Assembly: GCA_003280515.1 (NCBI GenBank)
Contig: QCER01000005.1
Location: 20,530 to 84,529, forward strand
Length of the DNA stretch: 64,000 nucleotides
Origin: Prochlorococcus sp. AG-355-P18
Lineage (GTDB): Bacteria > Cyanobacteriota > Cyanobacteriia > PCC-6307 > Cyanobiaceae
Direction: 5' to 3'
This document shows, in pieces, positions 4,299-56,149 of the stretch; positions within the stretch are counted from its first letter, which is position 1, and the number at the start of each line of letters is the position of its first letter. A program made the translations under genes and the position numbers. The notes beneath the pieces were generated by a model that was given only the letters and a program-made list of their open reading frames with translations, made no database searches and was not told the origin of the DNA.

Positions 4299-5642
4299 TT
4301 GAAGAATAATCAAAAAGAAAAAATATTTTCGAATAAATTTATCCAAAAATTTTTAGAAAATGAATCTAAAATAACTCAAAAAAATAAATATAAATTTGCT
4401 GAAATTTCATCTTCATTAGCATATTATTTAAAATCATTTTCCAACATAAATAAATTACTTGATTATGTATGCTTAATTTTTAAACATATTTATTTTGAGA
4501 ATATGATTTTAATTATTCCGTTAAATTATGAGGGAGAAATATGGAATGAAAATATAAAAATTTCAGCTAATTATGAATTTTTAACAATTCAAGAAGAAAT
4601 TAATAGTTTTTTGAATCAATTTCATTTTTCAAAAAATTTTAAGATAAAAGAAATTCTAACTTTTGAAAATGCTTTAAAAAATAAATTTCAAGAATACAAA
4701 ATTGAAACAAAAAAAATAATATCTAGAGGTAAATGTAGAGGATTTATTTATATTTTTAGCAAAGATATTTTTAGACAGTCGATTACTAAAGAAAGTAACT
4801 TTAATTTTATCGAAAGTTGTTTAGCTGTTGGATTAGAAAATTACTATTTAATAAAAACAAAGAAAAAGCATGAAAAAGTAGATAGAGAAATTTCCACTGG
4901 TGCTGAAATTCAATCTCAATTACTCCCTGATTATTGTCCAATTATCCATGGCATAGACCTGGCAGCTCATTGTAGACCAGCTCTTCAGCTCGGAGGTGAT
5001 TACTATGATTTCATGTGTTTAAAGCCGAATATCTCAGAAAAAAGAAAAGAAAAATCAAGATGGGCCTTCGTAATAGGAGATGTTATGGGTAAAGGAATTC
5101 CAGCAGGTCTTTTAATGACTATGTTAAGAGGAATGCTACGTGCAGAGGTTCTTACAGGTCTGCCTCCAGATAGAATTTTGCATGATTTGAATCAACTAGC
5201 AATAAATGATTTAGATCAATCTCATAGATTTGTGACATTATTTTATTCAGACTATGATCCCAGAACTAGAAAATTGAGATTCGCTAATGCAGCACATAAT
5301 CCTCCTCTGCTTTGGAAAAGCATAGATCAGAAAATTATAAAATTAGATGCAAAAGGATTTGTACTTGGACTACAAAAAGATGCTGAATATCATTGTTGTG
5401 AAATCAAGCTTAATCAAAATGATTTAGTTCTTTATTACACAGATGGTGTTATTGATACTTCTAACTCTTTAGGGCAAAGATTTGATGAGGAAAGATTAAT
5501 TAAAACACTTACAAAATTATGCAAGCAATCTTATACATCCCAAGAAATTTTAAATAAAATATTCAAAAAGTTAGATGATTTTACAGGGCAAAATAGACAT
5601 CTTGAAGATGATGCTTCTATGGTTATTTTTCAATTGAAATAG
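4299..5642 (+). CDS. PP2C/SpoIIE (RsbU)-type serine phosphatase
   Basis: EIQSQLLPDYCP...GGDYYDFM...GDVMGKGIPAGLLMTMLRGMLRA...YYTDGVIDTSN. Confidence 0.88.
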   Translation: MKNNQKEKIFSNKFIQKFLENESKITQKNKYKFAEISSSLAYYLKSFSNINKLLDYVCLIFKHIYFENMILIIPLNYEGEIWNENIKISANYEFLTIQEEINSFLNQFHFSKNFKIKEILTFENALKNKFQEYKIETKKIISRGKCRGFIYIFSKDIFRQSITKESNFNFIESCLAVGLENYYLIKTKKKHEKVDREISTGAEIQSQLLPDYCPIIHGIDLAAHCRPALQLGGDYYDFMCLKPNISEKRKEKSRWAFVIGDVMGKGIPAGLLMTMLRGMLRAEVLTGLPPDRILHDLNQLAINDLDQSHRFVTLFYSDYDPRTRKLRFANAAHNPPLLWKSIDQKIIKLDAKGFVLGLQKDAEYHCCEIKLNQNDLVLYYTDGVIDTSNSLGQRFDEERLIKTLTKLCKQSYTSQEILNKIFKKLDDFTGQNRHLEDDASMVIFQLK

Positions 5643-11440: not shown

Positions 11441-12347
11441 TAGTAAAAATTTAGGTTTAGTTACGAAAAAATTTAATGAATTTTTTTTAGTTGATTTAAA
11501 AAATAAAGAAAACTTTGAAAATAGCGATAAATTTTTATGTAAGGTGAGGAAGTCTATAAATTTCAAGGATCAATTAATTTATGTTGGTGACGAAGTGATA
11601 ATTGAAAATATTGATTTAAAAAGCAAACGCGCAGTAATAACAAGTCTTAAAAAAAGAAAAAATTTATTAGTTAGACCCTCAGTTGCAAATATTTCTAACA
11701 TATATATCACTTGTTCAGTTAAAGAGCCAGAGTTAAATTTATCTCAAGTTAATAGGTTTTTGATATCAGCAGAATCTATGGGTGTTGAAGTGTCATTAGT
11801 TTTGACAAAATGTGATTTAATTTCAGATACAAAAAGATCTTTATTAATTGATAAATTTGAAAAATGGGGTTATCAAATAATAACTTTAAATTTAGAGAGA
11901 TCTGATTACTTTAATAATTTATTAGCTGAATTAAAGAAAAAAAAATGTTCAATTTTTATGGGCCCATCAGGTGTTGGCAAAACTACTTTGCTTAATATGA
12001 TAATTCCAGGTCTTCATAATAGTACTGCGCCAGTTTCCAATAAAATTAAGAGAGGTAAAAACACTACTCGAAATGTTGAGTTATTTTCAATATCGAATGA
12101 AAGTTACATTGTAGATACTCCTGGTTTTAATATGCAACCTGTAGAGGTTGATATTAAGTTGTTACCAAATCTTTATTCAGAAATATATAAACAGGTAATC
12201 GAAGAAGGAATTAAGTGTAAATATCGTAACTGTTTACACTTAAAAGACGAGGGATGTAATTTAAATAAATCTTTTGAAAGATATTCTTTTTATAAAGAAA
12301 TGATTGAGTCTTCTAAGAGTCACTATTATCAAAACCAGGTAGATTAA
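11430..12347 (+). CDS. rsgA: ribosome small subunit-dependent GTPase A
   Basis: Circularly permuted GTPase: [22 protein letters not shown]-terminal zinc [14 protein letters not shown]. Confidence 0.92.
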
Positions 12348-12663
12348 GATTTAATCCACCAGTCAAATCATTCATCCTTTCTTTCATTGTAGTAGTTGAT
12401 AATTCATGAGCTTTTTTAATAGCCTGTAAAATATTCTGCTCTATTTTTTCTTTATCTGCGTTTAGAAAATTTTCTTGTACTTCTACCTTTAAAGGAAGTT
12501 GATTTCCACTTATCCAGACTTTAATCATTTCATCATCACTTTTTCCTTCAATCTCCATATTTTCAAGTTCATCTTGTAATTTTTGAGCATCTTGTTGAAT
12601 TTGTTTAGCTTTTTTAAAAGCTTCTGTAAGTTGTCCAAAGTTAGGAAGTCCAAAACCCGCCAT
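12313..12663 (-). CDS. YbaB/EbfC family nucleoid-associated protein
   Basis: 116 aa: [26 protein letters not shown] typical of YbaB. Confidence 0.9.
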
Positions 12664-12680
12664 TTTGTAAAAAAGTTTCT

Positions 12681-13574
12681 TTAGTTAGGATAGTCAAAAC
12701 CAATCATTCTTACTTCCGGTTGCAAAAAAATTCCTTTGTTTTGTAGTACTTTTTGTTGAATTACTGTTATTAATTCATAAATATCTTTTGAACTTGCTGA
12801 AGAAGAGTTAATTATAAAATTTGAATGCATTGTAGAAATTTCAGCACCCCCAATTTTAAATCCTTTTAAACCCATTTCATCAATTAATTTTGCAGCATAA
12901 TTATTTTCAGGATTTTTAAAAACACTACCAAAACTTGGTTGATGATATGGTTGTGTTTCTGTTTTTAATTTAAGGTTATTTTTGGTTGTTTGTATTAACT
13001 GTTTTAGATTTCCATTAGGCTCAAAATGTAGCCTTGCACTAATAATTGTTAAATCATTTTTTTGAAACGAGCTAAATCTATACTCAAAGTTGATATCTTT
13101 TTTTTTAATTTCAAGTTTTTCATGAGTTTTATTATCTATAACTTTTACGGAAATAAGATTTTCTGCTAGCGATAAATTACCTGTCCCAGCATTCATATAA
13201 ATTGCTCCTCCTAATGTTCCTGGAATTCCAACAGCCCATTCCCCTCCTTGCAATCTATTTTTAGCAAGAGAATTAGATAATGTTGGGAGCATTACACCTG
13301 CTTCCGCCTCAACAATTCCTGAATATGGGTCTATCTTTAATGATTTCAATTTTTTTGTACAAACAACTAAGCCTTTTATGAAAATATTATTTATTAAAAG
13401 ATTTGAACCTGCGCCAATTATTTGACATCTTTGTTTGTTTAAATTAGCCCATTTTATTAGATATGAAAATTCTTCAATACTTCTTGGTTCAGCAAAATAT
13501 TCAGCTACTCCTCCTACTTTTATAGTTGTATAACTACTTAAATTGCAGTTTTTAGAAAAATTTTTTTTATTCAT
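12681..13574 (-). CDS. murB: UDP-N-acetylenolpyruvoylglucosamine reductase
   Basis: [36 protein letters not shown]. Confidence 0.95.
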
Positions 13575-13585
13575 AAATTTGTTAT

Positions 13586-14998
13586 CTATTTAAATGTTTT
13601 TTCATTTAAAATTGTCCAGAAATTATGACAATTACCAGCTCCCATATTCAAAATTAAATCCCCTTTTTGAGTTAATTCGTAAAAATTCTTTGCTACTTCA
13701 TAATAATTATTTATGTAACTAACATTTTTATTTTTTTTATAAATCAGATCAGTGATAATTTTCGAAGTAATTTTATCTTCGTTTCTTTCTCCTGCTCCAT
13801 AAATACTGGTTACATAAATAACATCTGCTTTTGATAATTCTTCAGCGAATTCGTCTTTAAATTGCTTGACTCGAGAGTATCTATGAGGTTGAAAAATAGC
13901 TATTAATCTACTTTTTTGACATTCATTTTCATCTTTTTGCTGAATCAATAATCTTCCTAATTTAATCGTCTCTTTTATTTCGTTTGGGTGATGTGCATAA
14001 TCATCATATAAACTTCTTTCATCTACTTCGCCTCTGAATTCAAATCTTTTTTTGGGCAGCTTTAGATATTTTATATTTTTCTTAATTTCTATAAAATCTA
14101 CTCCTATCATCCTTGAAGCTGCTATTGCTGCTGTGATATTAGATAGATTGTGTAATCCTGGAATTGGAATATTTAAACTACTAATAAAATTTCCATTTTC
14201 ATAATACTTTCCAATTGTATACTTTGAATTAATTTCGGTAGGAATTATCGCATAAGCTACGTTTTTTGCCGTACTGTTTGACCATTTCCAATTAGAATAA
14301 AAATTATTTCTTGAGGTTTCACAATCAAAATTAAATAGTAATTTTTTAGAATTTTTAGCGAAACTTTTAAAAGAAGATATGACTTCAGTTAAATTTGAAA
14401 AGTGATCGCAATGATCAAAATCAATGTTATTGATTATTCCGATATAAGACTTATATTTGTTAATTGTCCCATCAGATTCATCAACTTCAGCTACTAAGTA
14501 TTTTGTATTTTCTAAATGACAATTAGAGTTGTAAATAGGAACTATTCCTCCAGTTATTGAAGAAGAATTACTTGTACATAACTCAAGTATTGTAGAAAGA
14601 AATGCACTGGTTGATGTTTTTCCGTGACTGCCGGCTACCGCCAATGCACTATAAGTGCTCATAAGCATTGCAAGTATCTCTGAACGGTGTTTTATTGATA
14701 AATTTTTTTCTCTGCAGTACGAAAATTCTTCATTTTCTGGCTTGATCGCAGAGCTTACAACAAAATTAATCAATCTGTTGGTAAATTTTGAAATAACAAA
14801 TTCAATATTTTGTTGAATTTGAGAAGAAAAGATTACTGCACCTAATTCCTCCAATTTTTTAGTTTCATCGTTTTTAACTAAATCAGATCCTGAAACTGAA
14901 CAACCTTTTTTAAGTAAACCTATTGCTAATGCTGACATCCCAATACCTCCAATCCCAATAAAATGAAAATGACTTTTCAACAGTAATTTTTTATCCAA
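13586..14998 (-). CDS. murC: UDP-N-acetylmuramate--L-alanine ligase
   Basis: HFIGIGGIGMSALA, GSHGKTSTSA, DDYAHHPNEI. Confidence 0.96.
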   Translation of the reverse strand: MDKKLLLKSHFHFIGIGGIGMSALAIGLLKKGCSVSGSDLVKNDETKKLEELGAVIFSSQIQQNIEFVISKFTNRLINFVVSSAIKPENEEFSYCREKNLSIKHRSEILAMLMSTYSALAVAGSHGKTSTSAFLSTILELCTSNSSSITGGIVPIYNSNCHLENTKYLVAEVDESDGTINKYKSYIGIINNIDFDHCDHFSNLTEVISSFKSFAKNSKKLLFNFDCETSRNNFYSNWKWSNSTAKNVAYAIIPTEINSKYTIGKYYENGNFISSLNIPIPGLHNLSNITAAIAASRMIGVDFIEIKKNIKYLKLPKKRFEFRGEVDERSLYDDYAHHPNEIKETIKLGRLLIQQKDENECQKSRLIAIFQPHRYSRVKQFKDEFAEELSKADVIYVTSIYGAGERNEDKITSKIITDLIYKKNKNVSYINNYYEVAKNFYELTQKGDLILNMGAGNCHNFWTILNEKTFK

Positions 14999-25869: not shown

Positions 25870-27456
25870 ATGAGTCAAATACCTTTAAAAAAAGAACGAG
25901 ATCCTTCAATATTGATTTTAGATTTCGGATCTCAATATTCTGAATTGATCGCAAGAAGAATTAGAGAAACGAATGTTTTTTCTCTTGTAGTCAGTAACTC
26001 TATTTCAATTGAGGATATTAATGAAATTAATCCTAAGGGGATCATTTTGAGTGGAGGCCCAAATTCTGTATATGAACAAAATGCTCCTAAATGTGATGAA
26101 AAAATATTTAATTTAGGAATTCCTATTCTTGGCATATGCTATGGAATGCAACTAATGGTCAAAGAACTCGGAGGATCTGTAGTTTCAGCAACCAAAAAAG
26201 CTGAATATGGTAGAGCACCAATAAATATAGATCAAGAATCTGACCTCCTTATTGATGTAGAAGATAAATCAATTATGTGGATGAGTCATGGCGATTCTAT
26301 TAATTGTTTGCCTGATGGATTTAATAAAATTGCTCATACTGAGAACACACTCCATGCAGCAATTTCAAATGATGTAAAGAAATTATTTGGTGTACAATTT
26401 CATCCCGAAGTTATTCATTCAGAGTTTGGGATGATGGTAATTAAAAATTTTGTTTATAAAATTTCTTGTTGTGTGGCTGATTGGACACCCGAAACCTATA
26501 TAGAGGAAACTATTCCCAGGATAAGAGAGCAAGTGGGCAATAAAAAAGTTTTGCTTGCCTTGTCTGGAGGAGTTGATTCCTCAACTCTCGCTTTTCTTCT
26601 GAATAAAGCAATTGGAAATCAGCTTACATGCATGTTTATAGACCAAGGTTTCATGAGAAAAGGTGAACCAGAATTTTTAATGAATTTTTTTGATAAGAAA
26701 TTTCAAATAAAAGTTGAATATATTAATGCACGGGCAAGGTTTATCGGCAAATTAAAAGGGATTACTGATCCAGAACAAAAAAGGAAAATTATAGGCGAAG
26801 AATTTATTAGGGTATTTGAAGAAGAAAGCAATAGATTGGGACCTTTTCAGTATTTAGCCCAGGGTACTCTTTATCCTGATGTTATTGAAAGTGCTGGTAC
26901 TAATATAGATCCTAAGACTGGTGAAAGAATAGCTGTAAAAATAAAGAGTCATCATAATGTGGGTGGACTTCCAAAAGATTTACAATTTAAATTAGTTGAG
27001 CCATTAAGAAAACTTTTTAAGGATGAAGTCCGAAAAGTGGGAGCTGCTTTAGGTTTGCCTGATGAAATAATAAAAAGGCATCCATTCCCAGGCCCAGGAT
27101 TAGCTATAAGAATTTTGGGAGAGGTCAATAACGAAAAACTTGATTGTTTAAGAGATGCAGACTGGATAGTAAGAGACGAAATTAAAAAAGCAGGTCTTTA
27201 CAATGATATTTGGCAAGCATTTGCAGTATTGCTACCTGTTAAAACTGTAGGAGTTATGGGAGATAAAAGGACTTATGCATGGCCAATAGTTTTACGTTGT
27301 GTATCTAGTGAAGATGGTATGACGGCAGATTGGTCAAAAATTCCTTTTCAGATTTTGGAGAGAATTGCAAATAGAATCGTAAACGAAGTAAGTTCAGTTA
27401 ATAGAGTTGTTTATGATATTACAAGCAAACCTCCTGGAACCATTGAGTGGGAGTAG
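25870..27456 (+). CDS. guaA: GMP synthase (glutamine-hydrolysing)
   Basis: GATase (GICYGMQLM), PP-loop ([14 protein letters not shown]), C-terminus [10 protein letters not shown]. Confidence 0.97.
27444..27455 (+). repeat. left attachment core (attL), guaA stop region
   Basis: TGAGTGGGAGTA, identical to 33987-33998. Confidence 0.85.
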
Positions 27457-27494
27457 TAAATAGACCAAAAAGTGTGCTATAATAAGGGTAGTTA

Positions 27495-27577
27495 GATCAC
27501 ACACAGATCACACACAAAGATTTCTGATACCTATTTTCAAGGGTTTTCAAGGACGTATCACACACACGTCACACATT
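27495..27577 (+). promoter_or_regulatory. candidate integrase arm-type sites, left end
   Basis: GATCACACACA at 27495-27505 and 27506-27516; TATCACACACA at 27556-27566; CGTCACACATT at 27567-27577. Confidence 0.6.
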
Positions 27578-27594
27578 GATTTTTGTTTGTTATC

Positions 27595-27608
27595 GATAGA
27601 GAAATCGT
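27595..27608 (+). promoter_or_regulatory. shared element motif upstream of integrase
   Basis: GATAGAGAAATCGT, 12/14 match to TGTAGAGAAATCGT; inverted half ATCTCTACAA at 27621-27630. Confidence 0.55.
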
Positions 27609-27659
27609 AGATGAGTGTGAATCTCTACAAACTGATTATTCTTATTTTGTTATTCGTCT

Positions 27660-29135
27660 ATGGGTGTCAGAGGTAAAAATAAAGATACTTTCGCTGTATG
27701 GGAAGAGTTAGATATTGCTGTTGATGATGATTCTCCATTTGCTTACATCTACAAAAGATTGGATAGCGAAAAGCATAAAGATATTGAAGATAGATCTTGG
27801 TACATAGGAATCCCAGTACCAAATAGTAAGAATGGTAAAAGATTATCTCTTAGAACAAGTAATAAAGATCAAGCAAAAAGAAAAGCAAGACAAAAAGTGA
27901 TCGAGGTAATGAAAGATCTACAAACTGGGGTAGATATAGTTGGTACTCCTGTTCGAGATTTCGTAAAAGCATTCCTTCGTCATAAAGAGTCATTAGTTCG
28001 TGGCGTAATGGAAGGTAAGAAAGATGGTGGTGTCAGAAGTATTACTAAAGAAAGGTATGGATTGATCGAAAGTAAAGTTAGGAACTATTTCGTTCCTTTC
28101 GTAGGAGAAAAAACATCTGCCAAGACACTCAAGTACAAGAAGTTTGATGATGAATGGGAATCGTGGCGAAAACAAAACCCTGCTGGTCGAGGTAATAAGA
28201 AAGTTTCTCCTAAACAAGTGACCATAAAAGATGAAATGGGAATGATAAGAGAACTATGGGGATGGGGTCAGAAAGAAAAGTTCATTGATCCATTATCGAA
28301 AATGCCATTCGATGATTACAACTTGGTAGAGGATGAAAAAATCAGAAGAGATACTTGGGAACAAGATGAATGGAACAAGTTCAAAAGACGTCTTCGTGAA
28401 TGGTTGAAGAATGAAAAGAAATCTGATGATTCAGATAGGATCTGGGAATCATTTGTTGCTTATCAACTCATCTTCTTATTGGCACAGTCAGGACTAAGAC
28501 CAAAGGAATGGAGTTTGTTGAAGTGGAAGGATATCAAGTACTTCGATAATGAAGAGGCAGAGTTTGCTAATGATCGAACTGGTGTAGAAATGAGCATTCA
28601 TCCTTCTACAAAAACTGGTTTTAGAAAAGCATTCTCTAGAGGTGGAATCTACCTACAAAGAATCGAACAACAAACTAAGTTTCGTAAGAAGAATGATTAT
28701 GTCTTTACTCATCTAAATGGTAAAAGAATGACACCAGATTTCTTGAGTGACATTTTCAATGGAAAGGGTAAGTGTGATGGGATAGTTGAAGCGACAAAAC
28801 TAAAAGAACTTACTGGTAAAGAAATCGTTCCATATTCATTACGTCATTACTACGCTACTCAATCAATATATTCATTCGTCCCTGATACATTGATTGCTAA
28901 GAATATGGGTATTAGTGTTCAAAGATTACATTCTTCTTACGATCACGCTTACCTAAGAGTTCAAACACCTGATCTCTTCAAAAGGAGTACTAAACAATCA
29001 AATATCAGAGAAATGAGGCAAGCAGGTGTTGGAGATTTTGCTTTCTTTACTAGAAGAACAGAAAAGCAGTTAGTACAACCAACTCCTAAAAGTGCTGATT
29101 CAAAGTATGGAATCTTCATATCTGATGAAGAATAG
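27660..29135 (+). CDS. int: tyrosine recombinase/integrase
   Basis: C-terminal catalytic domain: SGLRPKEWSLLKWKDI (Arg I), PYSLRHYYATQSI (Arg II), LHSSYDHAYLR (Tyr); adjacent to att site. Confidence 0.92.
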   Translation: MGVRGKNKDTFAVWEELDIAVDDDSPFAYIYKRLDSEKHKDIEDRSWYIGIPVPNSKNGKRLSLRTSNKDQAKRKARQKVIEVMKDLQTGVDIVGTPVRDFVKAFLRHKESLVRGVMEGKKDGGVRSITKERYGLIESKVRNYFVPFVGEKTSAKTLKYKKFDDEWESWRKQNPAGRGNKKVSPKQVTIKDEMGMIRELWGWGQKEKFIDPLSKMPFDDYNLVEDEKIRRDTWEQDEWNKFKRRLREWLKNEKKSDDSDRIWESFVAYQLIFLLAQSGLRPKEWSLLKWKDIKYFDNEEAEFANDRTGVEMSIHPSTKTGFRKAFSRGGIYLQRIEQQTKFRKKNDYVFTHLNGKRMTPDFLSDIFNGKGKCDGIVEATKLKELTGKEIVPYSLRHYYATQSIYSFVPDTLIAKNMGISVQRLHSSYDHAYLRVQTPDLFKRSTKQSNIREMRQAGVGDFAFFTRRTEKQLVQPTPKSADSKYGIFISDEE

Positions 29136-29137
29136 TA

Positions 29138-29163
29138 TTCTCAACTGTAACCCTTGTTGAGAA
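29138..29163 (+). terminator. hairpin after integrase gene
   Basis: TTCTCAAC (29138-29145) and GTTGAGAA (29156-29163), 8-bp perfect stem with 10-nt loop; no clear U-tract. Confidence 0.45.
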
Positions 29164-29261
29164 CAACCTTTTGACCATTTTTTATGGCGATTATTTTTTG
29201 ATATACAAGGTAAATAAAAGTTCGATTTGATATCACACTCGAATGAACCCACTTTTGTAGG

Positions 29262-29441
29262 TTAGGGAAGTTTGCCTTTTTTATATACGGTTTTCATAAA
29301 GTCATAAAGCATAGATCTGTCATATTCATCTTGACTGGGTTCATTATCAGGAAACTGTCTGTCTGCTCTTGGGTTGTTGAAGACCAGATCCTTTATGATC
29401 CCCTTGAATCTTTTGTATGTTATACCTTTCTTATTGGTCAC
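29262..29441 (-). CDS. hypothetical 59-aa protein (GTG start)
   Basis: Manual reading: MTNKKGITYKRFKGIIKDLVFNNPRADRQFPDNEPSQDEYDRSMLYDFMKTVYKKGKLP*; starts 3 nt after the preceding ORF stop. Confidence 0.6.
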   Translation of the reverse strand: MTNKKGITYKRFKGIIKDLVFNNPRADRQFPDNEPSQDEYDRSMLYDFMKTVYKKGKLP

Positions 29442-29444
29442 TCT

Positions 29445-29603
29445 TTATCTCTTTAGTATCTTCTTGAATGGTTTGTTCTGATAATCGTCATACTCTTGAA
29501 GTGCCCAAGAGTCCAAGAAAGAACTAACGCTCTTCCCATTCTTCTTGGATATAAACTCCAACATCTCATACGTTGGTTTGTTGATGTAAATGCTCTTCTT
29601 CAT
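29445..29603 (-). CDS. small ribbon-helix-helix-like protein (52 aa)
   Basis: Manual reading: MKKSIYINKPTYEMLEFISKKNGKSVSSFLDSWALQEYDDYQNKPFKKILKR*; ATGA overlap with the upstream small ORF; beta-strand/helix/helix pattern. Confidence 0.65.
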   Translation of the reverse strand: MKKSIYINKPTYEMLEFISKKNGKSVSSFLDSWALQEYDDYQNKPFKKILKR

Positions 29604-29764
29604 ACAAGGAACTCTTCTCTAATCTTTTGCTTTACCCATCCCGACCTACTGATGTACAAGTTCTTTTGTAAGTTGTGATCTAGCAAGTTGAGTAGATCTT
29701 CTTCATTAGCACCAAATGTGATTGGTACTTGTTTTGGTCTTGGTTTTTCGATTGTTTTTGGCAT
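29600..29764 (-). CDS. small possible ribbon-helix-helix protein (54 aa)
   Basis: Manual reading: MPKTIEKPRPKQVPITFGANEEDLLNLLDHNLQKNLYISRSGWVKQKIREEFLV*; ATGA overlap with 29445..29603. Confidence 0.6.
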   Translation of the reverse strand: MPKTIEKPRPKQVPITFGANEEDLLNLLDHNLQKNLYISRSGWVKQKIREEFLV

Positions 29765-29824
29765 TTGATTCTAAGGAGATAGATCGATTGAGGTGTCTGT
29801 ATATATGCTTCTCGTAGTCACATA

Positions 29825-30625
29825 CTATGTATATGTTTTTAGTGGTAGTTTTGGTTGATCTATAGGACAGATTGGAACATCACTATGTTCAAAATCAATA
29901 TGTTCCCACTTATCAAACTCAACTGAACTCAAGGACTTGTTTGTGTAGGAAATACGTTTCTTGATGCTTTTGGGATCAATAATATCTACACCTTGTTTGC
30001 TTTTTGGGATCTTGGTTACTCGTTCCTTTAGATGATTAGTAAGTGATTCTCTCATTAGTTCATCTTCTGAACACGTCCCTTCCCATATCTTGTTCATAGT
30101 ACGTTTGCTCATTGTGATGTTTCTGTTTCTTGTCGATCTCCACCAATGAAAATCAGGTCTTTCAAGAAGGATATGTATATGAAGGTCACCTGATTGAACT
30201 AACTCTAGATTCTGGTTTTTACCTTGTCTGAAGAACATCCCTTCACGTTCATTGAAGAACCATATTCTGATGGGGTTAGTTGGTCTAGTGGTGTTGTAAA
30301 AGAAATGAAGTATAACGTTCTTGATGTGACTGTTATCTGCGTACTGCTTGATGATGTCTTTGTTCGGTTTATAGAAGGAGATTGTAAGGAAATCTCTGAA
30401 CTGTAAGTTCTCTCGAACAATCATATTGGACAACCAATATTCCGTACTCCACCTCTTATTAGTAAGTTGATCGCCTTTTGCGGGAACTTTGCGGACATAA
30501 TCCGTTAGTTCGATTTTTGGACACACCATTTCCGTGAGTATGGTTGATTGCTCCTTGAATCTTGGATCTTTCAAAGATTCATCAACCCACCTTTTGACAG
30601 GTGCTTTCTTGACACTAGATGTCAT
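29825..30625 (-). CDS. probable HUH-endonuclease replication initiator (rolling-circle Rep)
   Basis: GDLHIHILLERPDFHWW (HxH metal-binding motif) followed downstream by SIKKRISYTNKSL (YxxK catalytic motif). Confidence 0.72.
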   Translation of the reverse strand: MTSSVKKAPVKRWVDESLKDPRFKEQSTILTEMVCPKIELTDYVRKVPAKGDQLTNKRWSTEYWLSNMIVRENLQFRDFLTISFYKPNKDIIKQYADNSHIKNVILHFFYNTTRPTNPIRIWFFNEREGMFFRQGKNQNLELVQSGDLHIHILLERPDFHWWRSTRNRNITMSKRTMNKIWEGTCSEDELMRESLTNHLKERVTKIPKSKQGVDIIDPKSIKKRISYTNKSLSSVEFDKWEHIDFEHSDVPICPIDQPKLPLKTYT

Positions 30626-30686
30626 AAGTTTTATTCGTAGTAGTTGAACTTTTGCGAAACATTCTTATTTCGTCTGGTTTATATAG

Positions 30687-30781
30687 GTAGTTCGTATGAG
30701 AAAACTACGATTGTGTTACGGATCAGTAATATTTCTCTCCATACATCGACATCTAAGAGCGACTGTACATACAGAAGTACA
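30687..30781. other. candidate replication origin region (hairpins upstream of rep)
   Basis: Stem GTAGTT/AACTAC at 30687-30708 and TGTAC/GTACA at 30764-30781 in a non-coding gap upstream of the Rep ORF. Confidence 0.3.
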
Positions 30782-30844
30782 ACACGCACCTACGTTTATA
30801 AGCATCTTTTTTATATTTCCGTTTTTTGGTCTTTCTTCTGTGTT

Positions 30845-31795
30845 TTAGAAGAAACCACTATCTTTCAAGATCAAGTTGTTCCATATTGCTAGTTCCTTCC
30901 TCTCGCTCATTACTGTTTCTAATCTCCTTCGATAGTTGTATCTTTGTGCTGCGTCTTCAGTTGTTTCGGCAAGCATTTGTAGTTTGGCGATGTATGATTC
31001 CCCGTGCTTTTGCCAAAACGTTTCTTTTCCACCAGATGCTTTGATGATGAAACCAGTAAATGATCTTATTGGTGCTTCGTGAAGTTCTTGTACTGTTCTT
31101 ATGTTGAACTGTTTCTTGATTGGGTCGGATGCTTTATCAAACCATTTTTGATTGAGTTGTTTTCTTAGGATTGCTTTCCAGAAAAGACCTTTCTCGTTTC
31201 TTTCTTGCTTTCTCAAGGTTGCTGTACCAGAAGGATTAGCAACTTGTAGTTGTGCTCCATACTCAGTACATACTTTTCTTAGTTCATTCTTCAGAATGTT
31301 CATTACCTCTTCACTCATATGAACATCATCGGGTCGAACAATATTGAACAAGTTCTCTTGCTTGTAACCCCATTTACCTTTTTCTCCATCTAATGCTGCT
31401 TTGGTTGGGAATCGAACTTGTCTTACATATGCCTTTGCTTCTCGTACTGAAACTGATGACGTTATGACCTTACTCTTTACTGCTGTAACTAACTCTTCTG
31501 GATCTAGGGCACAAAGTATATGGATGGTCGAATAAGACGCTGGTAGGCGATCTACGAGGTCTCTACGCTTATCTTCTGGTATATCTAATAGTTTCTCTCC
31601 AATAACCTTCAGTTTTGAAAATATCTTAGGCGAAATGTTGATATCATTTTTGTAGAGACCATATATCGATGAATCAAGTGATCGAAATGTCTCAGCAATC
31701 GATATCGATAGGTTACATATCTGTTTAGATGTTCCTGTGTATGGATTATTCTTTGCCACTTTCAAGGCATTACCAAGTGTTTGCTTAGGAGTCAC
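30845..31795 (-). CDS. 316-aa protein, possible ParB/KorB-like HTH segment
   Basis: LVDRLPASYSTIHILCALDPEELVTAVKSKVITSSVSVREAKAYV resembles HTH segments of plasmid ParB/KorB-type regulators; remainder unrecognised. Confidence 0.45.
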   Translation of the reverse strand: MTPKQTLGNALKVAKNNPYTGTSKQICNLSISIAETFRSLDSSIYGLYKNDINISPKIFSKLKVIGEKLLDIPEDKRRDLVDRLPASYSTIHILCALDPEELVTAVKSKVITSSVSVREAKAYVRQVRFPTKAALDGEKGKWGYKQENLFNIVRPDDVHMSEEVMNILKNELRKVCTEYGAQLQVANPSGTATLRKQERNEKGLFWKAILRKQLNQKWFDKASDPIKKQFNIRTVQELHEAPIRSFTGFIIKASGGKETFWQKHGESYIAKLQMLAETTEDAAQRYNYRRRLETVMSERKELAIWNNLILKDSGFF

Positions 31796-31832
31796 ATCTT
31801 TTACTGGGTTTGTTTGAACTATATCCTACTTG

Positions 31833-31902
31833 TAGAGAAATCGTCGAGAAAAAGACCATCAAGAAACATACACTCTACTACAACCAAATGTAGAGAAATC
31901 GT
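31833..31902 (+). promoter_or_regulatory. two copies of shared element motif in divergent intergenic region
   Basis: TGTAGAGAAATCGT exact at 31833-31846 and 31889-31902, 56 bp apart. Confidence 0.7.
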
Positions 31903-31914
31903 AGGATAATAAGA

Positions 31915-32475
31915 TTGTACAACAAACATACCGTTATGACACAAACAACAACACAAACTACTTCTCTACAGTTAGATAAGCACTATCTTGTCAAACTTGC
32001 TGATGAAGGATTCGACTATAAGAACTTTGTTCGCTTCAGGAATGAAGACAAGATCCGTGAAACTCTTGATGCTTCAGGTGCTTCTTATAATCCTTTTCAA
32101 GATGCTTTCTTTGAAAAGTTCTTTGATGAGTTAGGCGAATCGCTTCAGTACGTTGATTTCCGAGCAATAGCAGAAAAGGTTATTACTGATCTGTGTGAAA
32201 ACCATATTGCTTATAAAGATACTGAGTTAGTAGATAATGAGGAATCTTATGAGAAATACTTTGAAGATGAAGAGGAAATACAACCTGTAGATCCTATTGA
32301 ACTAGCGATAAAGAATCCATTGTTTGAGCGTTGGTGGGGTGGTTGGTCTCCCTCTGATCATTATCAAATCGCTAATACGACTGATTTTTTATGTGCTCTT
32401 GCTACCGATGGTATTGATAGTGCTATCAATAAGCAGATCGCTGAAGAGAAAGCATTTCGTGAAGAGCAAGAGTAA
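31915..32475 (+). CDS. acidic hypothetical protein of the element
   Basis: 186 aa; preceded by two motif copies; alternative starts at 31915 or 31936 (MTQTTTQTTSLQ). Confidence 0.75.
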   Translation: MYNKHTVMTQTTTQTTSLQLDKHYLVKLADEGFDYKNFVRFRNEDKIRETLDASGASYNPFQDAFFEKFFDELGESLQYVDFRAIAEKVITDLCENHIAYKDTELVDNEESYEKYFEDEEEIQPVDPIELAIKNPLFERWWGGWSPSDHYQIANTTDFLCALATDGIDSAINKQIAEEKAFREEQE

Positions 32476-32648
32476 TGAGTTCTAAGTACAAAGAGTTCGT
32501 GCTCGGACAAATAGCATCTGAACTCAATCTTCTGATGGCATTCTCTAGTTCCTATCAATCCGATAAGGATCAGGAATGGGTTGATGCTATGTGTGAAAGT
32601 ATTGAAAAACTGAGTGAATATGAGGAGTTCTGGAAACCTTATTACTGA
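32475..32648 (+). CDS. hypothetical 57-aa protein
   Basis: Manual reading: MSSKYKEFVLGQIASELNLLMAFSSSYQSDKDQEWVDAMCESIEKLSEYEEFWKPYY*; TAATG overlap with the preceding ORF. Confidence 0.6.
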   Translation: MSSKYKEFVLGQIASELNLLMAFSSSYQSDKDQEWVDAMCESIEKLSEYEEFWKPYY

Positions 32649-32657
32649 TCTAAATGT

Positions 32658-32681
32658 GGGGAAACTATTATTGGTTTCCCC
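32658..32681. terminator. bidirectional hairpin between convergent element operons
   Basis: GGGGAAAC (32658-32665) / GTTTCCCC (32674-32681), 8-bp perfect stem, 8-nt loop. Confidence 0.65.
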
Positions 32682-32859
32682 TGTCTTTCTTTAGTCGTTC
32701 TAAGTACTCTTTTGACACTATGTGACCAGTCCAATCGCTTGGATAATACTTCTTCATTAGATGTGGAACTATCATCGTCGTTGGATAACCAGATACGAAA
32801 TGGAAATAAACTTCCTTCTTCTCTGGATCTTCAAAATGGGGATACTTTATACCTCTCAT
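32668..32859 (-). CDS. hypothetical 63-aa protein of the element
   Basis: Minus-strand ORF starting 3 nt after the stop of 32862..33035. Confidence 0.55.
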   Translation of the reverse strand: MRGIKYPHFEDPEKKEVYFHFVSGYPTTMIVPHLMKKYYPSDWTGHIVSKEYLERLKKDRGNQ

Positions 32860-32861
32860 TG

Positions 32862-33035
32862 TTATGGATAAAGAAGATCAACAAGAGAACCATTACTATC
32901 TACGATCCTATATCTCTTGTTATATCTTGTTGCTCTATCTTGAGCAGTTTTTCTTGCTGATGGAACGTGGTACATCGAAGTGTAGTGTTGCCATCTACCA
33001 AACTGATCTAACCATTGAACCTTGTGAAGTTCCAT
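32862..33035 (-). CDS. hypothetical 57-aa protein
   Basis: Manual reading: MELHKVQWLDQFGRWQHYTSMYHVPSARKTAQDRATRYNKRYRIVDSNGSLVDLLYP*; TAATG coupling with the serine recombinase stop. Confidence 0.6.
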   Translation of the reverse strand: MELHKVQWLDQFGRWQHYTSMYHVPSARKTAQDRATRYNKRYRIVDSNGSLVDLLYP

Positions 33036-33712
33036 TATCCGACCTCCAGAAGTGAAAGTGTTCGTGAAACTTTAGAAGGATGAAATGATCTTCCTCTGGA
33101 TGTTGTAATACCACTATTGTTCAAGACATCGCAGATAACTCTTAGAGATTTCCCTTGTTGCTTTAGTGGAACTATGAGACCTTCTAATCTTTTTGCTTCC
33201 TTTAGTGCTTTTTCTCTTCTTGCTTTAGCAAGTGCTTCGATATGGTGTATTGGTGCTCCTAGTTTCTTGTCAGGATTTCTTTCTTTCCAACTTTGAAGTG
33301 CTGCTTTAGTACGAGATCCTATGAAATCTTTCTCTTGCTCATTTAGTGCCGAGTAAATGTGAAGTTGAAACTTATCAGCAAATGGCATCTGGGCAACTTT
33401 GAAGTTTAGATCCTTGTCTTCTAAAAGTGATGCTATGAAAGATACTCGTCTAGACAACCTACAGATCTTTTGAACCAATAATATTGCTGATTCTTTCTTT
33501 GCTAATGCGATTGCTTTCTTCAACTCAGGTCTATTGTTATCTCCACCTGATTGAACATCGGTAAATGAACCTAAGATCTCATATGGTTGTTCAGAGTAGT
33601 TGTCTAAGTAAAGATCAATATCTCTTTTTTGTGCTTCTAAACCAAGACCAGATTGTGATTGTTTCTGGGTACTGATTCTGTAGTACAAAACATACCTTTT
33701 TGACTGTTCCAT
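33035..33712 (-). CDS. serine recombinase (resolvase/invertase family)
   Basis: YYRISTQKQSQSGLGLEAQKRDI with catalytic Ser; SGGDNNRPELKKAI; C-terminal HTH SLRVICDVLNNSGITTSRGRSFHPSKVSRTL. Confidence 0.9.
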   Translation of the reverse strand: MEQSKRYVLYYRISTQKQSQSGLGLEAQKRDIDLYLDNYSEQPYEILGSFTDVQSGGDNNRPELKKAIALAKKESAILLVQKICRLSRRVSFIASLLEDKDLNFKVAQMPFADKFQLHIYSALNEQEKDFIGSRTKAALQSWKERNPDKKLGAPIHHIEALAKARREKALKEAKRLEGLIVPLKQQGKSLRVICDVLNNSGITTSRGRSFHPSKVSRTLSLLEVG

Positions 33713-33742
33713 TATGAATCGGACGATTGATATGCTTATTAT

Positions 33743-33831
33743 ACGATATCTCTACAGTAGAGACCATATATGATATGCCAGAATCATAGTTGGACACTTG
33801 TTTTCTCTTTTTTGTGTATGATTTCTCTACA
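33743..33831 (-). promoter_or_regulatory. two copies of shared element motif upstream of serine recombinase
   Basis: Reverse strand TGTAGAGATATCGT (33743-33756) and TGTAGAGAAATCAT (33818-33831). Confidence 0.65.
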
Positions 33832-33878
33832 AATCAGTCGTAGAGCAAGATTTGAAGTGTAAGTTTTGGTTATAGTTA

Positions 33879-33901
33879 CGTCACACATACATCACACATA
33901 G
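33879..33901 (+). promoter_or_regulatory. candidate integrase arm-type sites, right end
   Basis: CGTCACACATACATCACACATAG, same TCACACA core as at 27495-27577. Confidence 0.55.
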
Positions 33902-33986
33902 AATATCCGTGTTATCTTGTAAAAAAGAACCTTGTTATACCAAAGGATATGGTCGATTCAAAAATCCAATATTGGTCTGGTACTAC

Positions 33987-33998
33987 TGAGTGGGAGTA
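33987..33998 (+). repeat. right attachment core (attR)
   Basis: TGAGTGGGAGTA; preceding bases TCTGGTACTAC read SGTTEWE* in the guaA phase. Confidence 0.85.
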
Positions 33999-34068
33999 AG
34001 TTTTCAAATTTTTCAAAAATCTAAAGTTTTTTTTAAGCAAGAAATTTGTAAATGAGATTTTAAACGTA

Positions 34069-34782
34069 ATGCCCGATATTATTAAATTAAGTCGATCTAC
34101 AGTTGAGAAATATATTAGTTGCCCAAGATGTTGTGTACTAGACAAAAAATATCAAATAAAACCGCCATCATTACCATTTACCTTAAATATAGCTGTAGAT
34201 AATTTATGTAAAAATGAATTTGATTATTATAGAAAAATTCAGGAGCCGCATCCTTTATTTATTGAATATGGAATTGATGCTGTGCCTTTCAAACACAAAG
34301 ATTTAGAACGTTGGAGAAGTAATTTTAAAGGGATAAGATATAAGTCAATCGAACACAACTATGACTTTGGTGGAGCTGTAGATGATATTTGGCAGAAAAA
34401 AAATGGTCATCTTATTATCGTTGATGTAAAAGCAACATCTAGAAATAATTTTGATTGGCCTGAGACTTTTAATAAATACGAATATGCAAAAGCTTATAAA
34501 AGACAGTTAGAAATGTATCAGTGGTTGTTTAAAAAAAACGGTTTTCAAGTCGCTAAAGAAGCTTATCTTTTATATTTTAATGGCAAGAAAAATCAAGAGT
34601 TTTTTAATAACCAATTAAATTTTGATGTACATCTAATTAAATTAGATTGTTCTACTTCATGGGTAGAAAATAAGATAATTGATACGGTAAATTTATTACG
34701 TTCGGATAATTTCCCCAAACCCTCATTAAATTGTGAATACTGTAATTATTTAAAGAAGCGTTGGCAGTTGTCGATAAATTAA
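34069..34782 (+). CDS. PD-(D/E)XK nuclease family protein, Cas4-like
   Basis: GAVDDIWQKKNGHLIIVDVKATS (D...DxK core), N-terminal SCPRCC and C-terminal NCEYC cysteines. Confidence 0.7.
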   Translation: MPDIIKLSRSTVEKYISCPRCCVLDKKYQIKPPSLPFTLNIAVDNLCKNEFDYYRKIQEPHPLFIEYGIDAVPFKHKDLERWRSNFKGIRYKSIEHNYDFGGAVDDIWQKKNGHLIIVDVKATSRNNFDWPETFNKYEYAKAYKRQLEMYQWLFKKNGFQVAKEAYLLYFNGKKNQEFFNNQLNFDVHLIKLDCSTSWVENKIIDTVNLLRSDNFPKPSLNCEYCNYLKKRWQLSIN

Positions 34783-55667: not shown

Positions 55668-55822
55668 TTTGCAAGATTCGATTTTTTAATAAGATAAATT
55701 AATTTTAAACTTATCTTCTCAGTATTTATACTTATAAAATTAAAAAAATTCCTTTTAATACAAGCATTTGCAGCAATATTTACACACTAATCAATTATCT
55801 ATTACAAATTCTTAGTTATTTA

Positions 55823-56100
55823 AAAAAAGTGGAGTCCTTCCAGACTCCTCGTATCATTTGGTTGATAAGGCTGATATAACCCCATCTCCTTTAGAATCAA
55901 GCAGCAACTGGTGCTGTTTGACGGGAGAAACTAACGATTTTGTTAGCATTTGTGTTTTTGCTCTAACCGAGCCGGCTTCAGTCACCTTCCTTATGCCCCG
56001 TCGAAACCATTACAACCCCAAATAGTGGAGTTGAGCGGAATCGAACCGCTGTCCGAAACATCGGTTGAGATCACCTAGTCCAATTGGACATTTATATTCT
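55823..56100 (-). ncRNA. ssrA: tmRNA, two-piece circularly permuted (acceptor piece precedes coding piece); boundaries approximate
   Basis: Minus strand: GCGGTTCGATTCCGCTCAACTCCA (T arm/acceptor) then GGGGTTGTAATGGTTTCGACGGGG and tag ORF GCT AAC AAA ATC GTT AGT TTC TCC CGT CAA ACA GCA CCA GTT GCT GCT TGA = ANKIVSFSRQTAPVAA* at 55897-55947; terminal stem GGAGTC/GGACTCC + T-run. Confidence 0.95.
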
Positions 56101-56149
56101 GACAGGCAAAATGGTTATTGAATAGTTTTTTTACTAAGTTTTATCGTAT

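Follow-up and report, generated by a model that had tools for sequence, protein, structure and literature searches.

The question raised by this locus is whether a 266-aa protein encoded in Prochlorococcus sp. AG-355-P18 is a rolling-circle replication initiator of the HUH class and, if so, on what kind of element it would act. The window (the whole stretch of 64,000 nucleotides that was analysed) carries its gene on the minus strand. The earlier note had placed an open reading frame at these coordinates, which proved an exact match, and had described an HxH motif with a YxxK downstream, both of which are present and are retained without exception across 11 homologues, the most divergent at 22% identity.

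29825..30625, minus strand: rep, 266 aa, uninterrupted from its ATG start; putative HUH replication initiator of the Y1 type
Landmarks of the rep protein: motif-1-like strand at residues 78-85; E126; H149-x-H151; Y227-x-x-K230

The string GDLHIHILLERP occupies residues 146-157 and provides H149 and H151 of the HxH, and Y227 and K230 lie within SIKKRISYTNKSL, with the tyrosine placed 78 residues past the first histidine. Because HxH and YxxK often arise by chance in one protein, it is their conservation that counts. Homologues were found in 6 of the 267 genomes of the genus and, at the family level, in 10 of the 400 genomes sampled (the window's own genome counted in both cases). The alignment of 11 homologues, one of them at 22% identity, retains only 18 invariant columns, which include H149, H151, E126, Y227 and K230. 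The hydrophobic-flanked HxH (L148-H149-x-H151) is seen in 11 of 11, with Phe replacing the Leu in the 22%-identity member; the distance from the HxH to the tyrosine stays at 78-81 residues across all homologues, and the order of HUH followed by Tyr is kept in every one of them.

Comparison with known replication proteins was informative at the level of the family. Taken alone, the window Rep scores 13.6 bits against the Pfam family PF23343 (REP_ORF2-G2P), under the curated gathering cut-off of 27.8; three homologues with about 40% identity to it exceed this cut-off (32.7, 30.1 and 31.4), and 7 of the 11 members, the window protein among them, match the family at E<=1. A search of 50,697 phage records (E<=10) with one Rep homologue returned 16 matches, all 16 annotated as replication proteins; their single E-values are poor (0.07-10) and the telling point is this uniform identity. 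Seven of these phage Reps (four from microviruses and three from inoviruses) were retrieved for comparison, and the profile of the Rep family aligned to them in hhalign with a probability of 95.6 (P 1.2e-8, 129 columns), a match that spans the metal-binding half, the tyrosine being compared by motif and spacing only. With the three inovirus Reps alone the probability was 91.1, and the controls run on the inovirus alignment gave values of at most 2.0 for 40 column shuffles, 0.5 for the reversed profile and 0.1 for the neighbouring 316-aa family. When the window Rep was compared with the profile by itself, P was no better than 0.01. As a single query this protein had no BLAST match to phages or plasmids and returned nothing usable from PDB sequences or IMG/VR, and a scan of IMG/VR with the family alignment found no relative. 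The AlphaFold2 model (8 sequences) has a pLDDT of 52, too weak for a fold test, with core strands at residues 78-85, 120-128 and 147-154; Foldseek gave no significant fold match for it in PDB or BFVD, and several of the named BFVD rows were replication proteins, none with an E-value <0.001.

The assignment to the HUH-endonuclease Reps made in the earlier note is supported by the PF23343 scores, by the 16 phage Rep matches and by the profile-profile match. The 266-aa protein is a predicted HUH endonuclease of the Rep type, akin to the Reps of inoviruses and microviruses and with Y227 as its only catalytic tyrosine. Most likely it would serve an excised integrative element by initiating its rolling-circle replication. 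The PF23343 Reps of inoviruses and microviruses share with the window family the motif-1-like strand, the E..H..G..HxHxL arrangement and the downstream YxxK. In the inovirus Reps the strings EYHKKGGLHFHILIGG and ERHKDGAWHFHGLVAG are similar to ERHQKGTLHLHLLMEG of the window Rep, and an E(R/Y)HxxGxxHxHxL string followed by Y..K is common to both. Most of the phage Reps compared have a paired YxxKYxxK, whereas the window family has a single YxNK, and the spacing from HxH to Tyr is about 35-68 residues in the phage proteins, in contrast to the longer one given above. The window Rep has in addition an extra N-terminal region relative to the PF23343 Reps and, unlike these phage proteins, is carried by an integrase-bearing chromosomal element in which no phage structural gene was recognised.

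Two att repeats delimit this element of about 6,543 bp (6.5 kb), which has inserted at the 3' terminus of guaA.

27434..27456, plus strand: attL, the 3' end of guaA including the stop codon, with the core TGAGTGGGAGTA at 27444-27455
33977..33998, plus strand: attR, 19/22 match to attL, followed by native-like post-guaA sequence

The 22-bp att repeat links the guaA end (27434-27455) with positions 33977-33998 at 19 of 22 identical positions, a value reached by none of 200 shuffles. The sequence after attR resembles the one that directly follows guaA in uninterrupted relatives, and the next gene lies about 71 bp after attR, to be compared with a gap of 66-76 bp between guaA and the next gene in relatives with an empty site (e.g. 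L060, L064, L071 and L080). By this gap measure 10 of the 29 sites among the relatives listed look empty, three of these 10 being reversed loci; several other relatives have short inserts at guaA, or no guaA within 1.5 kb. The stop codon of guaA is TAG in the window and TAA at the empty sites, in agreement with a TAG that was probably supplied by the element. Att repeats, an integrase at one end and empty sites in relatives are all found, as in an integrative element at guaA, and the mobility that the earlier note had envisaged is supported by this integrase-bearing insertion. Within the genus this end of guaA seems to be a hotspot for integration (window 27456-34069; L059-L088), with empty sites, short inserts or larger islands in the relatives. 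Some guaA loci (L007, L010 and L045) show several att-like copies. No convincing downstream repeat of the guaA tail was seen in L009, L044 or L047-L049 with a simple match, the stretch examined being short in some of them or the site perhaps diverged.

The remaining genes of the window element are as follows.

27660..29135, plus strand: tyrosine recombinase (integrase), 491 aa; Pfam Phage_integrase 3.9e-8, phrog_1 integrase 3.6e-17
29262..29441, minus strand: small ORF, 59 aa; L009 has a homologue, the only one
29445..29603, minus strand: small ORF, 52 aa; no Pfam match, resemblance to ribbon-helix-helix proteins judged by eye only
29600..29764, minus strand: small ORF s54, 54 aa; beside rep throughout the family, no Pfam match
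30845..31795, minus strand: 316-aa protein; DNA-binding domain of the ParB/Noc type in the N-terminal half
31915..32475, plus strand: 186-aa protein with no assigned function, in the place of the SF3-type helicase of L009, L010 and L045
32668..32859, minus strand: small ORF s63, 63 aa; homologue in L010
32862..33035, minus strand: small ORF s57, 57 aa; kept beside the resolvase
33035..33712, minus strand: serine recombinase/resolvase, 225 aa; Pfam Resolvase 9e-22, phrog_125 DNA invertase 3e-23

Ten guaA-site elements carry both integrase and Rep (that of the window, L007, L009, L010 and L044-L049), in hosts belonging to Prochlorococcus and marine Synechococcus/Cyanobium, and homologues of the integrase adjoin guaA in all the guaA-site relatives. 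A rep remnant also adjoins guaA in L011 (genome G029). The 316-aa protein is present in 10 of 10 guaA-site elements; its AlphaFold2 model has a pLDDT of 80, Pfam gives a weak HTH_ParB match at residues 87-127, and Noc/ParB DNA-binding domains appear among the weak Foldseek matches of the model (probability 0.63-0.87, E>1), all of which is consistent with a probable accessory or partition-like DNA-binding protein. The s54 product, judged by eye, is a possible ribbon-helix-helix regulator. The serine recombinase is found in all the guaA-site elements except L047, whose contig ends early, with divergent copies in L007 and L010. An SF3-type (DUF5906) helicase of 631-665 aa is encoded in L009, L010 and L045 and is absent from the window element. 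At the corresponding position L046 encodes a beta-lactamase-fold protein (11749-13071; Lactamase_B_3, 7.7e-7), possibly cargo. At L051:5520-7604 and L011:3912-5786 the guaA site is occupied by large ORFs that are related to each other (MMSIDIE..., by eye similar to acyltransferases) and that adjoin an integrase or a rep remnant.

A closer look at the region between the gene of the 316-aa protein and rep revealed a hairpin.

30655..30672, minus strand: hairpin CGAAA-TAAGAATG-TTTCG, between the TATATAAA box and the start of rep

It recurs at this place, past the TATATAAA box, in nearly all copies of the element; in L050, a Rep locus away from guaA described below, the motif is absent within the stretch examined. 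The stems vary (TGTATGT/ACATACA, ATATGAA/TTCATAT, GATGT/ACATC, CGAAA/TTTCG) and the loop is constant, with AACGGAAGCAG or a GGAA-like core, the window copy being looser (TAAGAATG). A stem that varies around a loop that does not suggests that the hairpin is recognised in single-stranded form, in the manner of the nick sites of rolling-circle elements. Over nine sequences the summed stem length is 49 bp, compared with 32.3 +/- 2.5 in dinucleotide shuffles (0 of 1000 reaching it), a test in which related copies are treated as independent and in which only the sum is significant, the stems of single sequences being mostly non-significant (p up to 0.64; window p 0.13). This stem-length test replaced an earlier MAFFT alignment of the hairpin that was poorly phased and gave three pairs only. 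Direct TGAC repeats lie 5' of rep in some copies and are not clear in the window. The hairpin is a candidate nick site, or double-strand origin, of the rep element; it may instead be an RNA structure in the 5'UTR of the rep transcript.

The second of these roles belongs to an account in which the HUH-derived protein is now an autoregulator or DNA-binding protein and the element integrates and excises without replicating. The lack of a helicase in the window copy and in several relatives would agree with this account, in which the hairpin could be a rep operator or a 5'UTR structure, but host helicases serve many rolling-circle plasmids, and five catalytic-type residues have stayed invariant despite large divergence, although a degenerate enzyme could do without them; it is considered unlikely. 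Another rival account is mobilisation by conjugation, in which the 266-aa protein would be a HUH relaxase that transfers the element rather than replicating it. Relaxases have the HUH fold too, and Reps and relaxases are interchangeable in some elements. In classical relaxases the tyrosine precedes the histidine motif, and in Reps it follows the HUH; the window protein has the Rep-like order, its tyrosine not lying N-terminal to the histidines. Furthermore, no relaxase family was matched in Pfam, PHROGs or NCBIfam, the annotated phage relatives are all replication proteins, and Pfam and PHROGs recognised neither a coupling protein nor a mating pore among the genes of the 6.5-kb element, all of which makes a relaxase quite improbable.

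Least credible of all, and very improbable indeed, is that the protein is an unrelated one in which HxH and YxxK have arisen by chance. The motifs are short and the searches with the single protein remained under thresholds, as would be expected of such a pattern, but the conservation in the family, the Pfam homologues above cut-off, the exclusive matches to phage Reps and the controlled profile comparison contradict it. The reading preferred here, that of a HUH Rep carried by a guaA-inserted 6.5-kb element and predicted to start rolling-circle copying after excision, is held with high confidence.

In the proposed mechanism the tyrosine recombinase would insert the element at the 3' end of guaA, so that the element provides the end of the gene, and integrase-driven excision would release it again. 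Rep would then nick one strand at the origin, probably the hairpin upstream of rep, and rolling-circle copying would start with the helicase of the element, in those relatives that have one, or with a host helicase. Regulation of replication, or DNA binding, may fall to the ParB-like and the small proteins, the serine resolvase would resolve multimers or cointegrates, and the copied element could reintegrate at guaA.

Two Rep homologues lie away from guaA, a closer one in L008 and a distant one in L050, with a tRNA-Cys about 0.6 and 3.3 kb off; both loci also carry related serine recombinases. The 21-nt 3' end of the L050 tRNA-Cys (5072-5142) is repeated at 14207, beside a 481-aa protein that has no Pfam match and a relative in L008. 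The interval L050:5122-14227, which holds the serine recombinase and the distant Rep, has the look of an element of 9.1 kb at tRNA-Cys. Both HUH Reps and the integrative elements that carry them are known kinds, and the tycheposons of Prochlorococcus, which integrate at tRNA sites, also carry replication genes. The guaA element resembles the tycheposons as a tyrosine-recombinase integrative element of this genus; it was rejected as a tycheposon under the tRNA-site definition, its site being guaA and no tRNA being found in the window. The only tRNA-like gene found there is a tmRNA gene at 55806-56115, with the tag ANKIVSFSRQTAPVAA (asterisk from ARAGORN). GIsul2 and ICERspD18B, which appear in papers discussing guaA, are reportedly integrase-bearing resistance islands of other bacteria; they resemble the window element as guaA-linked islands with an integrase and differ from it in their hosts and as resistance islands.

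The available text of PMC10187409, in which the tycheposons of Prochlorococcus are named, describes an element of picocyanobacteria that uses tRNA-Phe or tRNA-Cys; its integrase is novel, and a small serine recombinase often lies close by. As far as that text goes, the guaA elements have in common with it the hosts, a variable-cargo island and the small serine recombinase, and differ in the integrase (theirs is recognised by Pfam Phage_integrase) and in the guaA site; guaA is unmentioned and a replication protein unnamed in those parts of PMC10187409, where the mechanism of movement is stated as not yet known. The tRNA-Cys islands of L050 and L008 fit the tRNA-Cys/tRNA-Phe element as described there (PMC10187409, in part), the likeness being one of description and not of sequence.

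In the literature compared, outside which the original tycheposon paper stands, three things appear as new: the Rep branch, the elements of marine picocyanobacteria that carry it at guaA, and its connection with tRNA-Cys islands. One replication gene ties guaA-site to tRNA-Cys-site islands. A wider proposal, put forward tentatively and given slightly less than an even chance, is that one shared and as yet unnamed Rep family enables rolling-circle replication in two or more kinds of picocyanobacterial element, those at guaA and those at tRNA-Cys, from a hairpin origin immediately 5' of rep; plasmid-poor Prochlorococcus would then have excisable, self-copying elements. With the Rep and a candidate origin in hand, excision, circle formation and strand-specific nicking become concretely testable, and the element offers a possible basis for vectors in Prochlorococcus, which is hard to transform. 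Few photosynthetic organisms are as abundant as Prochlorococcus, and few plasmids are known from it; the present analysis suggests that these plasmid-poor cyanobacteria of the ocean harbour elements with the ability to copy themselves as circles.
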